Origin: Alphaproteobacteria bacterium MarineAlpha5_Bin9
GTDB taxonomy: Bacteria > Pseudomonadota > Alphaproteobacteria > HIMB59 > GCA-002718135
Assembly (NCBI GenBank): GCA_002937895.1
Contig: PTKV01000014.1
Coordinates: 1-44,166 of the forward strand
DNA length: 44,166 bases
Reading direction: 5' to 3'
In this document: piece after piece, positions 11,639 to 29,046 of the stretch
Position numbering within the stretch: position 1 is the first letter of the stretch
Layout of the letters: every line of letters starts with the position of its first letter
The notes under the pieces: generated by a model
Told to the model about the DNA's origin: nothing
Seen by the model: the letters and a program-made list of their open reading frames with translations, nothing else
Databases searched by the model: none
Made by a program: the position numbers and the translations under genes

Positions 11639-12694
11639 GTGGCTGAAATAAATATAAAATCAATTAATAAATCTTTTGGTGATGTTCATGTCATTAAGGA
11701 TATTAGTCTAGATGTTAAAAGTGAATCTTTTACAGTACTAGTTGGACCTAGTGGGTGTGGTAAATCAACTATGCTAAGAATGATTGCAGGTCTTGAAGAT
11801 ATAGATTCAGGTTCTATTTCAATTGATGGAAATATTGTTAATGATCTCCCTCCAAAGTTAAGAAATATTGCCATGGTATTTCAGTCTTACGCATTATATC
11901 CTCATATGACAGTTTTTGATAATATGGCTTTTGGATTAAAACTGGAAAAGAAATCAAAAGATGAAATTCATGAAAGGGTTCTTGAGGCTGCTAAAATTTT
12001 ACAAATTGAAGATTACTTAAATAGAAAACCAAAACAATTATCCGGAGGTCAAAGACAAAGAGTTGCAATTGGTAGGGCTATAACAAGAAAACCAAAAGTA
12101 TTTTTATTTGATGAACCATTATCAAATCTTGATGCTGCTCTAAGAGTTCAAATGAGAGTTGAATTGGCAAAATTACATGATCAACTTAATGCCACAATGA
12201 TTTATGTAACTCATGATCAAACTGAAGCTATGACACTTGCTGATGATATTGTAGTATTAGATGAGGGTGTCATTTCACAAAAAGGTTCCCCGATGAATCT
12301 TTATAATCATCCTTCAAATATTTTTGTAGCTGGATTTATCGGATCTCCAAAAATGAATTTTATCTCTGCAAAAGTAACTAATAAAAATGAAAAAGAAATT
12401 GAAATTAACATGCTAGATTCTACAAATATTATCTTAAACAATAATAATTCAAATCATTCAATAGGAGATTCTGTAAAACTAGGAATAAGACCAGAGCACA
12501 TTCTAATTGATAATGACTCTGATGCAAATTGGGAAGGAAAAGTTTTTGTAGTTGAAAAATTAGGCTCAGGAACTTTTTTATACCTTGAAAAAGAAGGGGA
12601 GCCACTTGTTGTAGAGGCTCCTGGTGACACAAGAATTAAAGTTGATGATATTATTAAAATTGGATTTGATAAATCAAAATGTCATCTTTTTTAA
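11639..12694 (+). CDS. UgpC/MsmK-type ABC transporter ATP-binding protein
   Basis: The 351-residue ATPase of the CUT1 carbohydrate transporter class energises sugar or glycerol-3-phosphate uptake. It has Walker A GPSGCGKST (36-44), the Q loop at MVFQSYALYPHMTV, the signature LSGGQRQRVAIGRA (about 135), Walker B VFLFDEPLSNLD, the H loop YVTHD, and a C-terminal TOBE/OB regulatory domain (about 235-351) with GIRPEH. The start is GTG, set by the AGGAGGA four bases upstream. No permease or binding protein gene is adjacent on either side, so it may serve transporters encoded elsewhere, as MsmK-type shared ATPases do. Specificity cannot be inferred. Confidence 0.92.
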   Translation: MAEINIKSINKSFGDVHVIKDISLDVKSESFTVLVGPSGCGKSTMLRMIAGLEDIDSGSISIDGNIVNDLPPKLRNIAMVFQSYALYPHMTVFDNMAFGLKLEKKSKDEIHERVLEAAKILQIEDYLNRKPKQLSGGQRQRVAIGRAITRKPKVFLFDEPLSNLDAALRVQMRVELAKLHDQLNATMIYVTHDQTEAMTLADDIVVLDEGVISQKGSPMNLYNHPSNIFVAGFIGSPKMNFISAKVTNKNEKEIEINMLDSTNIILNNNNSNHSIGDSVKLGIRPEHILIDNDSDANWEGKVFVVEKLGSGTFLYLEKEGEPLVVEAPGDTRIKVDDIIKIGFDKSKCHLF

Positions 12695-12730: not shown

Positions 12731-12770
12731 ATTTTATTAATAAAATCAACGATTCGATATTTTTGAATCG
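12731..12770. repeat. Palindrome and hairpin after the ABC ATPase gene
   Basis: ATTTTATTAATAAAAT (12731-12746) is a perfect 16-base palindrome. It is followed by CGATTC (12750-12755) pairing with GAATCG (12765-12770) over a nine-base loop. No T run follows on the plus strand. On the minus strand the second stem is followed by TTGATTTTATT, so it could terminate minus-strand transcripts coming from 12928. The right arm also overlaps the proposed -35 of the RNA gene below. Confidence 0.4.
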
Positions 12771-12790
12771 AAAATAAACTTAAATATAAT
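12763..12790 (+). promoter_or_regulatory. Sigma-70-type promoter of the candidate RNA
   Basis: TTGAAT (12763-12768) and a perfect TATAAT (12785-12790) are 16 bases apart, one of the cleanest vegetative promoters I see here. Transcription would start at about 12797-12803, where the closing stem of the structured RNA begins. No coding sequence follows on this strand, which argues for an RNA product. Confidence 0.55.
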
Positions 12791-12799
12791 ATTAATTTT

Positions 12800-12926
12800 A
12801 ATGGGCAGAGGTTTTTTGATATAATTTCCTCCAATTGTATATCTTTTAAATCTCTCTGCTTCGGAGAGATTAAAATTACTTTTAGGCTTATATTTTAAAT
12901 TTTCGCCGGATCTTTACCCCTGCCCG
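12800..12926 (+). ncRNA. Candidate rod-shaped small RNA, 6S-like in layout
   Basis: About 125 bases between convergent genes are less A/T-monotonous than their surroundings and can fold into one long rod. A closing stem pairs GGGCAG(A)GG (12803-12811) with CC(C)CTGCCC (12917-12925). Then comes a large weakly paired middle, and an apical hairpin AATCTCTC (12849-12856) with GAGAGATT (12864-12871) around a TGCTTCG loop, extended outwards by three more A:T pairs after one mismatch. It has its own promoter and no downstream gene. Closing stem, central bubble and apical stem resemble 6S RNA, but I cannot confirm the family. It lacks the SRP RNA GGAA-loop core and is too short for RNase P RNA. Confidence 0.45.
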
Positions 12927-12927
12927 T

Positions 12928-13824
12928 TTAATTCTGATGAGTTTGTAATTTTATTAATTCTTTGGCTTTTTTAATATTATCTAAAAAGTATTTTATATAT
13001 CTTTCTGGTAATTCAAAATTTAGATTAAAATTATCTGGAAACTTATTCTCTTTAAAAATTTTATCAAAAGGTATATCTCCCCATCCAAGTGGCAAATGAA
13101 GATCCCCTTGACCATAGGAAGTAAATTCTGATGGTAAATATGCCCATATACTTTCAATTAATCCAAATGAATCATGCATATGAATATGTTCAGACAGAGG
13201 GGCTAATAGATTAATTTGTTCTAAGAAATTTGCATTTCTAAAAGTGCAATTAATATATCCATGTGAAATATCTAAGCAGCATTTGATATTAGGATGGTTT
13301 ATAGAATTCAGTTGATATGCAATTTCACTTGGAAGAGGCGCATAATTTTTTTTTGTAAAAGGAAATAAATTTTCAATTGCTAATACTACATTAAATTTTT
13401 TTGCATAATCCCCTAAATAAGAATAGCATTCTTCTTGCCTTTTTAGGTGTGATAAATATAAATCTTTGTTTTCATAAATTTCATTTGTTGTCTGTCCAAA
13501 ATGAGTTACTAAATGACTAGCTTCGATTTCACCACATACTTCTATATCTCTCTTTAAAACTTCTTTGTGACTCTCAAAATTATCAACATCCAATAAATTT
13601 ACACTTAACTCACCATGCACAGTATAGGAAATTTTCTTATTCTTAAGTGTTTTTTTTAAAATATTTAATTCTTCATTATTAATTTTCATTCCACATATAA
13701 CATCAGTTTCATAGATAGGTATCTCTATTGAGTCTACTCCTACTTCTATCAATCTTAAAATTTGATTCTCTAGAGCTAGAATATCTCCATTGGGACATTG
13801 TCCACTAAAACCAATTTTATTCAT
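12928..13824 (-). CDS. Sugar phosphate isomerase/epimerase family TIM-barrel protein
   Basis: The 298-residue protein belongs to the xylose isomerase-like TIM-barrel (AP endonuclease 2) superfamily, whose members isomerise or epimerise sugars or act as dehydratases. Metal-site strands are recognisable: YTVHGELSVN (about 57-66), LVTHFGQT, LAIENLFPF (Glu ligand), CCLDISHGYIN (Asp and His), HIHMHDSFG (His) and NFELPERY (the final Glu). There is no signal peptide. It is separated by one base from the upstream ICMT-like gene and belongs to a three-gene minus-strand run with it and the HAD gene. Substrate is unknown. Confidence 0.8.
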   Translation of the reverse strand: MNKIGFSGQCPNGDILALENQILRLIEVGVDSIEIPIYETDVICGMKINNEELNILKKTLKNKKISYTVHGELSVNLLDVDNFESHKEVLKRDIEVCGEIEASHLVTHFGQTTNEIYENKDLYLSHLKRQEECYSYLGDYAKKFNVVLAIENLFPFTKKNYAPLPSEIAYQLNSINHPNIKCCLDISHGYINCTFRNANFLEQINLLAPLSEHIHMHDSFGLIESIWAYLPSEFTSYGQGDLHLPLGWGDIPFDKIFKENKFPDNFNLNFELPERYIKYFLDNIKKAKELIKLQTHQN

Positions 13825-15052: not shown

Positions 15053-15112
15053 AGCGATACATAACTCGTCGTTAATGCGAAAGTGGGATCGGTCGCACTT
15101 ATATAATGGGGG
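15053..15112 (+). promoter_or_regulatory. GC-rich structured leader with alternative hairpins
   Basis: In an A/T-rich setting, 15053-15100 is clearly richer in G and C. TAAC/GTTA (15062-15065 and 15071-15074 region) can form a small hairpin. Then AAGTG (15081-15085) can pair with CACTT (15096-15100), or TGCGA (15076-15080) with TCGCA (15093-15097). These two pairings share bases and exclude each other. GCGA near 15053-15056 offers a third partner for TCGC. The GGGGG Shine-Dalgarno (15108-15112) lies just past them. The layout would suit a riboswitch or protein-bound leader. I recognise no known class. Confidence 0.35.
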
Positions 15113-18760: not shown

Positions 18761-18763
18761 TTA

Positions 18764-18952
18764 TTAATTCTTACTAATCATTTCTTTTCCACAACAACTT
18801 GGAGACTTAATTTTACCATGATCATTAGGACATTTTGAAACTTGAATAGTAGAGTTTTCTATTTGAATATTATCATTAATTAGTTCTGCATTACATTTTG
18901 CGCAAGTAGCATTAACAGACATTCCACATTGCAAACACTCGTAAGTAGCCAT
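18764..18952 (-). CDS. Small zinc-ribbon-like protein, 62 aa
   Basis: The protein has seven cysteines in 62 residues: Cys6/Cys9 and Cys17/Cys20 as two CxxC pairs forming a probable zinc knuckle, then Cys41 with His45 and the pair Cys53-Cys54. Such small cytosolic zinc-ribbon proteins are common in marine alphaproteobacteria. I cannot assign a role. It converges on the alpha/beta hydrolase gene, and nagA lies upstream of it on the same strand 58 bases away. The start at 18952 is preceded on the minus strand by AAGGATAACTT, a fair binding site. Confidence 0.75.
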   Translation of the reverse strand: MATYECLQCGMSVNATCAKCNAELINDNIQIENSTIQVSKCPNDHGKIKSPSCCGKEMISKN

Positions 18953-19010
18953 AAGTTATCCTTTTAAAAATATTATAAAGAGTAAAATGTTTAAGTCAAA
19001 TAATCCTGTA

Positions 19011-28627: not shown

Positions 28628-28640
28628 GTAAGAAAATCTA

Positions 28641-28805
28641 TTATTTTTTATTATAATCTTTAATCAAATTTTTTATTTCATTTTTAGCAATGATTCTAAT
28701 GATTATCACTATTATAGCCAACCAAAAAAAAGCTGCTACAAATAGATTTTGAAAAACTAGATTTAATATTCCATCAAAAAAATTTTTAATTAAAAAATAA
28801 TCCAT
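28641..28805 (-). CDS. 54-aa single-span membrane protein
   Basis: The reading frame starts at ATG 28805-28803 and ends at TAA 28643-28641. It encodes MDYFLIKNFFDGIL at the N terminus, one long hydrophobic helix (about residues 20-39, ending in Arg) and a Lys/Asn-rich tail. It lies 14 bases upstream of the EamA gene on the same strand, and begins only seven bases past the terminator stem at 28812-28833. It resembles small marine alphaproteobacterial membrane proteins, but I recognise no family. Codon composition fits the genome; coding status is likely rather than certain. Confidence 0.5.
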   Translation of the reverse strand: MDYFLIKNFFDGILNLVFQNLFVAAFFWLAIIVIIIRIIAKNEIKNLIKDYNKK

Positions 28806-28811
28806 AAAAGT

Positions 28812-28833
28812 ATGGGCGGCTTTAGCCGCCCAT
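28812..28833 (-). terminator. Terminator of the amt transcript
   Basis: A perfect nine-pair stem (ATGGGCGGC with GCCGCCCAT) and a four-base loop lie 13 bases after the stop of the 57-aa gene. It is by far the most GC-rich hairpin of the window. The T tract on the minus strand is short (ACTTTTATGG), and the stem is symmetrical, so it could also stop plus-strand transcripts. Confidence 0.7.
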
Positions 28834-28845
28834 TATATATATTAG

Positions 28846-29019
28846 TTATTTAGTTTTATCAGAAACTTCATTCTCATGCTTTGCAGCAGCACCTATTACC
28901 CATACATGAAGTGCCACAACTATCAAAACAATGAAAATTAACATCCCAGGACTATCCGCCCAAGTGAAGTATGCATCTACACCTTCCCAACTATTTTCTG
29001 GTCCAGGCCAAGTATTCAT
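28846..29019 (-). CDS. 57-aa membrane protein in the amt operon
   Basis: The frame starts at ATG 29019-29017 and ends at TAA 28848-28846. The N terminus is Trp/Pro/Asp-rich (MNTWPGPENSWEGVDAYF), followed by one membrane helix (about residues 24-43) and a charged C tail with KHENEVSDKTK. AAGGAT stands about six bases before the start. It follows the ammonium transporter gene by 27 bases on the same strand and precedes the strong terminator, so it should be cotranscribed. A single-span protein behind amt could modulate or accompany the transporter. I know no named family for it. Confidence 0.7.
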   Translation of the reverse strand: MNTWPGPENSWEGVDAYFTWADSPGMLIFIVLIVVALHVWVIGAAAKHENEVSDKTK

Positions 29020-29046
29020 AAAAAGATCCTTTCATTATTTTTATAA

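Follow-up and report, generated by a model that had tools for sequence, protein, structure and literature searches.

A conserved small RNA family that probably silences messages of nutrient-capturing transport proteins in a family of uncultured marine Alphaproteobacteria

Anti-Shine-Dalgarno small RNAs and the locus under study

In Sinorhizobium meliloti the Hfq-bound small RNAs AbcR1 and AbcR2 (alpha-r15), 121 and 114 nt in length, are encoded by tandem copies beside lsrB, fold into several stem-loops and carry two anti-Shine-Dalgarno (anti-SD) motifs, one located in the loop of a hairpin (CUCCUCCC) and the other between the stem-loops (UUCCCCUC), and they silence transporter mRNAs by pairing at the ribosome-binding site (PMC8844928). 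The 115-nt NfeR1 of the same species, described from the Rhizobiales, contains three identical anti-SD motifs and has validated targets among the mRNAs of periplasmic substrate-binding proteins, while an interaction with Hfq is not reported for it, unlike for AbcR1/2 (PMC8844928, PMC10746234). In enterobacteria the single sRNA GcvB acts on many mRNAs for amino-acid and peptide uptake, including those of dppA/oppA-type substrate-binding proteins (PMC9988348, PMC11878033), and in Rhodobacter the Cuckoo RNAs CcsR1-4 are tandem short sRNAs co-transcribed with the gene of a DUF1127 protein (PMC10253847). The sequence of GcvB is unrelated to the RNA family described here, and the gene context of the Cuckoo RNAs (DUF1127, tandem) differs from that of this family. 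The Cuckoo RNAs bear CCUCC motifs; GcvB is about 200 nt long, has a GU-rich seed and is Hfq-dependent.

Like AbcR1/AbcR2, the family reported here has two anti-SD motifs, UUUCCUCCU and UAUUCCUC, and the same class of targets is predicted for it; both motifs are found in the relatives, and the window copy keeps the first one only. Unlike AbcR1/AbcR2, its RNA is ~62 nt long, single-copy, built around one clamped stem and linked to an ABC ATPase gene. Redundant anti-SD motifs are shared with NfeR1, whose validated target class is the one predicted here; the family differs from NfeR1 in its length and in that homology is undetectable through Rfam. Homology to AbcR/alpha-r15 did not emerge either, with no family at threshold in the window or in eight relative loci, using an Rfam library that presumably includes the alpha-r families. 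The best reading is that the family RNA would be a trans-acting sRNA working like AbcR and NfeR1 without being recognisably homologous to them, which would add an apparently unrelated alphaproteobacterial solution to the same regulatory task.

The window, i.e., the whole stretch of DNA that was analysed, comprises 44,166 nt from Alphaproteobacteria bacterium MarineAlpha5_Bin9. The candidate region is a 233-nt gap separating two convergent genes, in which an earlier note had proposed that a clean promoter precedes an unannotated structured RNA, either resembling 6S RNA or being a lineage-specific small RNA. The features of this region are the following:

11639-12694, plus strand: ABC transporter ATPase gene, UgpC/MalK-like (Pfam ABC_tran, OB_MalK, TOBE_2)
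12750-12770, plus strand: hairpin CGATTC/GAATCG after the ATPase gene (from the sequence and from relatives)
12763-12768, plus strand: -35-like TTGAAT (from the sequence), overlapping the preceding hairpin and not clearly conserved in relatives
12785-12790, plus strand: -10-like TATAAT (from the sequence), with a 16-nt spacer to TTGAAT
12799-12865, plus strand: sRNA core, a homologue of the RNA that is ~62 nt long in 88 other genomes (covariance model R3; synteny)
12803-12811, plus strand: 5' arm of the closing stem, GGGCAGAGG (from the fold; the stem covaries in relatives)
12819-12840, plus strand: hairpin with the anti-SD loop on display (minimum-energy fold), missed in the earlier note
12825-12832, plus strand: anti-SD motif UUUCCUCC, the proposed mRNA-binding seed, invariant in 43/43 distinct relatives
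12849-12871, plus strand: hairpin of the window copy only, competing with the proximal 3' arm
12853-12861, plus strand: proximal 3' arm UCUCUGCUU, at the position of the relatives' 3' arm, pairing with 12803-12811 in the short form
12916-12928, plus strand: distal 3' arm with the sequence ACCCCUGCCCGUU, to which the long form gives preference
12928-13824, minus strand: xylose-isomerase-like TIM-barrel gene, the convergent neighbour (Pfam AP_endonuc_2)

The ATPase gene has the ribosome site AGGAGGATGAAGTG. The hairpin that follows it is probably a leftover of its terminator, and some relatives have GAATCGG..CCGATTC followed by a U-run at this position. No gene lies downstream of the candidate on its strand before the one beginning at 15106, in line with the earlier note.

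The candidate segment is a stable structure, with a folding energy of -34.8 kcal/mol (z = -3.22) that was equalled by 0/200 shuffles, and its gap has the lowest energy per nucleotide among the intergenic gaps of at least 40 nt in the window. The GC closing stem that had been described is present at 12800-12812/12916-12928. In the minimum-energy fold it encloses the two hairpins 12819-12840 and 12849-12871 in place of the proposed rod with a large internal bubble, and of the UUCG-containing apical hairpin only the UUCG itself is found, which forms no tetraloop in this fold. The UCCUCC bases in the loop of 12819-12840 have an unpaired probability of 0.94-0.99. The TTGAAT and TATAAT boxes stand where they had been placed, 16 nt apart; promoter-like sites number 5 in 500 nt vs 2.8 +/- 1.9 in shuffles, and the pair by itself is weak evidence for a promoter.

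A conserved RNA downstream of the ATPase gene

Early searches for homologues, using the candidate as DNA query in 60 relatives or, in 162 genomes, a covariance model made from this one sequence, returned only AT-rich or coding chance matches, and they failed because the relatives carry a much shorter RNA. The upstream ABC ATPase has best matches of 75-82% identity in nine genomes of the window's family, and a ~62-nt element is located 3' of each of these orthologues on the same strand (e.g., GAGCAGAGAGTTTCATATTATTTCCTCCTAAAGAAGTATTCCTCTAGTAAACTTCTCTGCTC). A covariance model built from the nine relatives alone, without the window copy (R3), yielded 88 strong matches with E-values between 1e-10 and 1e-19. 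No genome had more than one of them, and the 88 further genomes without exception belong to the window's family; a search of 289 genomes of the class, a few of them from the window's order, gave no match outside that order. The best match of the model in the window is 12799-12865 (26.5 bits, E 7e-4). ATPase orthologues precede the RNA in all 54 loci examined, where it lies on the same strand 118-138 nt after the ATPase stop codon (54/54; 109 nt in the window), while synteny of the downstream TIM-barrel gene with the RNA is not conserved in relatives. A scan for weak Rfam hits also returned none. The ~62-nt RNA is a previously undescribed family without an entry in Rfam 15, and with 88 further genomes, a covariance model and synteny it is ready for curation.

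Among 43 distinct sequences of the family, pairing is kept in 98.4% of pair cells. Both sides have changed at five pairs, one of which occurs in a GC form in 23 and in an AU form in 19 sequences. The covariation score is 0.160 vs at most 0.106 with partners slid, in an alignment that was fitted to the model structure and somewhat favours this result; the same closing-stem changes are seen in a nine-sequence MAFFT alignment. The closing stem of the relatives' RNA thus covaries. Hairpin 12849-12871, one of the two stems for which the earlier note had suggested a check for compensatory changes, is missing from the relatives. Read as a minus-strand RNA, the share of paired cells drops from 98.4% to 80.0%, and because the conserved G-U pairs fail on the minus strand, the plus strand is the RNA. 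Fold z-scores of eight representatives range from -2.9 to -6.3, and that of the 67-nt window core is weak (-1.4); for the inner structure two alternative hairpins are possible.

Conservation ends at the edges of the RNA, save for a -10-like box, which 50 of the 52 distinct upstream sequences have within the 20 nt 5' of the stem (in shuffles 33.7 on average and 43 at most). In one subgroup (L141, L142, L143, L177) a palindrome AAAACGTTTT (or CAAAACGCTTTAG) is situated just 5' of the -10 box, which is a possible regulator site. Within the RNA, the invariant UUUCCUCC is accompanied by the second anti-SD motif UUCCUC in 42/43 distinct relatives, both motifs being largely unpaired in the predicted folds. 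Conservation extends well past CCUCC, into UAUUAUUUCCUCCUA and GAAGUAUUCCUC, and the sequence complementary to the conserved core, UAGGAGGAAAUAAUAUG, has the form of a textbook ribosome site. The family-wide covarying homologue, the fixed synteny and the conserved -10-like box support two proposals of the earlier note, that of a structured RNA preceded by a promoter and that of a lineage-specific small RNA. We are highly confident that this is a real conserved sRNA.

As judged by comparison with the relatives' RNA, the window copy is a remodelled, longer and diverged version of it. It retains the 5' arm GGGCAGAGG and AUAUAAUUUCCUCC and has lost the second motif, and its distal half (12866-12928), which carries the distal 3' arm sequence CCCCUGCCC, was not found in the relatives. 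The full segment reaches -34.8 kcal/mol with the distal arm vs -22.8 kcal/mol with the proximal arm, and the functional window RNA may be ~65 nt or ~130 nt long.

Candidate targets and proposed mode of action

Ten genomes together contain 32 exact occurrences of the pattern GGAGGAAATWAT, and the sRNA loci themselves account for ten of these. Among the other loci examined, seven are positioned directly 5' of the ATG of a long ORF, and 7/7 of these ORFs encode substrate-binding proteins: four of the SBP_bac_5 type (G001, G004, G006, G009), two Peripla_BP_4 proteins (G006, G018) and one DctP (window genome), with Pfam run on five of the genes and the other two assigned by closeness in sequence to a confirmed one. 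These seven exact matches are not independent, because four of them are one orthologous gene. Most of the other readable matches either represent a coding motif, GGNNAGHT, which by eye is adenylosuccinate-synthase-like, or lie away from starts. The DctP leader GGAGGAAAUUAUAUGAAAAAA (L228) complements the window sRNA at 20/21 positions, and an A/T variant is shared by the RNA and its own target in the window genome and in G001, not in G018. In G005, the leader of an SBP_bac_3 gene, AAAUACUUCUUCAAGGAGGAAACGUG, pairs at -27.5 kcal/mol with the two conserved parts of the sRNA, a value reached by 0/60 flank-shuffled sRNAs on any of 249 genes, and a ZnuA leader matches the second anti-SD motif.

A GGAGG precedes the start in 27/838 genes sampled from four genomes, a partial sample of scattered stretches of G000, G001, G005 and G009 (window and L239-L278) with start codons called by a script that prefers a strong SD. 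It is found at 9/13 substrate-binding-protein genes vs 18/825 others (Fisher p = 6e-12), where the 13 genes were chosen by a signal-peptide heuristic plus Pfam and the 825 others may include more such genes. In a group test over flank-shuffled sRNAs with CCUCC held fixed, the leaders of substrate-binding proteins showed no better pairing than other leaders with a strong SD (p = 0.19), and because this excess is not significant, it may be mainly the rarity of GGAGG that provides selectivity.

In the mechanism that we propose, window positions 12799-12928 on the plus strand would encode a trans-acting sRNA, a remodelled copy of the family's ~62-nt sRNA, transcribed from its own putative promoter. 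UUUCCUCC with the flanking UAUUA, in relatives also GAAGUAUUCCUC, would be kept exposed inside a GC-clamped stem and would base-pair with ribosome-binding sites carrying a full GGAGG, mainly those of the substrate-binding proteins of nutrient transporters; the pairing would block ribosome entry and repress translation. Selectivity would come largely from full-strength SD sites being nearly confined to substrate-binding-protein genes. The small RNA probably switches off messages of nutrient-capturing transport proteins, as its motifs and their complements suggest, and in the mechanism as a whole we place moderate confidence. More tentatively, the full SD may serve as an address label, the rare GGAGG being retained on substrate-binding-protein genes and read by one 62-nt anti-SD sRNA, a neighbour of the shared ATPase gene, that sets the whole uptake repertoire. 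Streamlined marine heterotrophs depend on substrate-binding proteins, and their set of transcription regulators is believed to be small. If the address-label reading were true, it would mean whole-repertoire control of uptake in streamlined organisms with few transcription factors, and a conserved sRNA with a seed matching those ribosome sites is in any case a directly testable candidate for the control of nutrient uptake.

An expressed, conserved sRNA could also use its CCUCC differently, namely as a global translation brake, as a sponge for an RNA-binding protein or as an autoregulator of the ATPase mRNA through the ribosome site AGGAGGAUGAAGUG. The 54/54 synteny with the ATPase gene, the presence of GGAGGATGAAGTG at this gene in G000, G005 and G009 and the non-significant group pairing beyond the SD fit such a role; the conservation far past CCUCC into UAUUAUUUCCUCCUA and GAAGUAUUCCUC, as well as the finding that exact complements at start codons are all at substrate-binding-protein genes, argue against it, and we consider it rather unlikely.

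Alternative readings of the locus and further observations

Repression of transporter messages by an sRNA has also to be weighed against readings in which the conserved element is no separate RNA or a different one. The gap might hold a 3'-UTR or a bidirectional terminator, as the flanking genes converge in several relatives just as they do in the window, and the stems are symmetrical. We regard this as quite improbable: no intrinsic terminator or U-run was found for the candidate RNA in the window sequence, the downstream gene in L140 appears co-oriented, the loop is more conserved than a terminator needs, the -10-like box is conserved, and elsewhere in the window the genes of convergent pairs overlap or are at most 17 nt apart and have no hairpins, with the exception of one 250-nt gap. 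That gap, at 18761-19010, holds an uncalled small zinc-ribbon-like ORF on the minus strand (~60 aa, cysteine-rich, MATYECLQCG...).

The complement of the conserved core could instead be the conserved feature, a minus-strand ribosome site plus ATG (GGAGGAAATAATATG) that opens a tiny ORF, and a properly spaced ATG is indeed found in 51/55 copies. Such a micro-ORF is very improbable and was rejected, since the ORFs are mostly 7-19 aa (max 34) in differing frames with no conserved peptide, the window copy has no ATG, and the G-U pairs are compatible with the plus strand only.

As for the 6S RNA of the earlier note, the covariance search with the Rfam 6S and related models matched nothing, RF00013 having no match in the window or the window genome. 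Across the class RF00013 matches 83/115 genomes vs 0/61 in the window's order; an alphaproteobacterial 6S model built from 32 of these matches recovered 12/12 held-out 6S loci at 65-114 bits and found no match in 100 genomes of the order. The 6S slot is therefore open in this order (0/61, 0/100), where 6S RNA is undetectable in the sampled genomes, being lost or diverged beyond recognition. A closing stem with internal loop and hairpin is a 6S-like layout, and the candidate could fill this slot in a lineage without recognisable 6S; this is the least credible reading and was rejected, as the candidate scores 3.9 bits on the alphaproteobacterial model, as a bare chance hairpin, the RNA is ~62 nt long in relatives vs roughly 150-165 nt for most of the 6S RNAs recovered, and the most invariant part is the anti-SD sequence and not a promoter-mimicking middle. 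The long window form is multibranched and lacks the 150-200 nt rod of closing stem, bubble and terminal stem. The structured RNA is real, and its 6S reading is not supported. SRP RNA (RF00169) was rejected as well, the SRP RNA of the genome being on another contig (56 bits).

Two further sites of the window were recorded. At 590-635, where no tRNA was called, GAGATCGAGGTTTCGATTCCCTCCAACAGCACCA looks like the 3' half of a tRNA, with a T arm and CACCA, and is possibly the remnant of an integration site. In the 419-nt gap between the EamA and Amt genes (28628-29046), ATGGGCGGCTTTAGCCGCCCAT forms a very stable hairpin, and the minus strand may contain a short ORF for a membrane protein.
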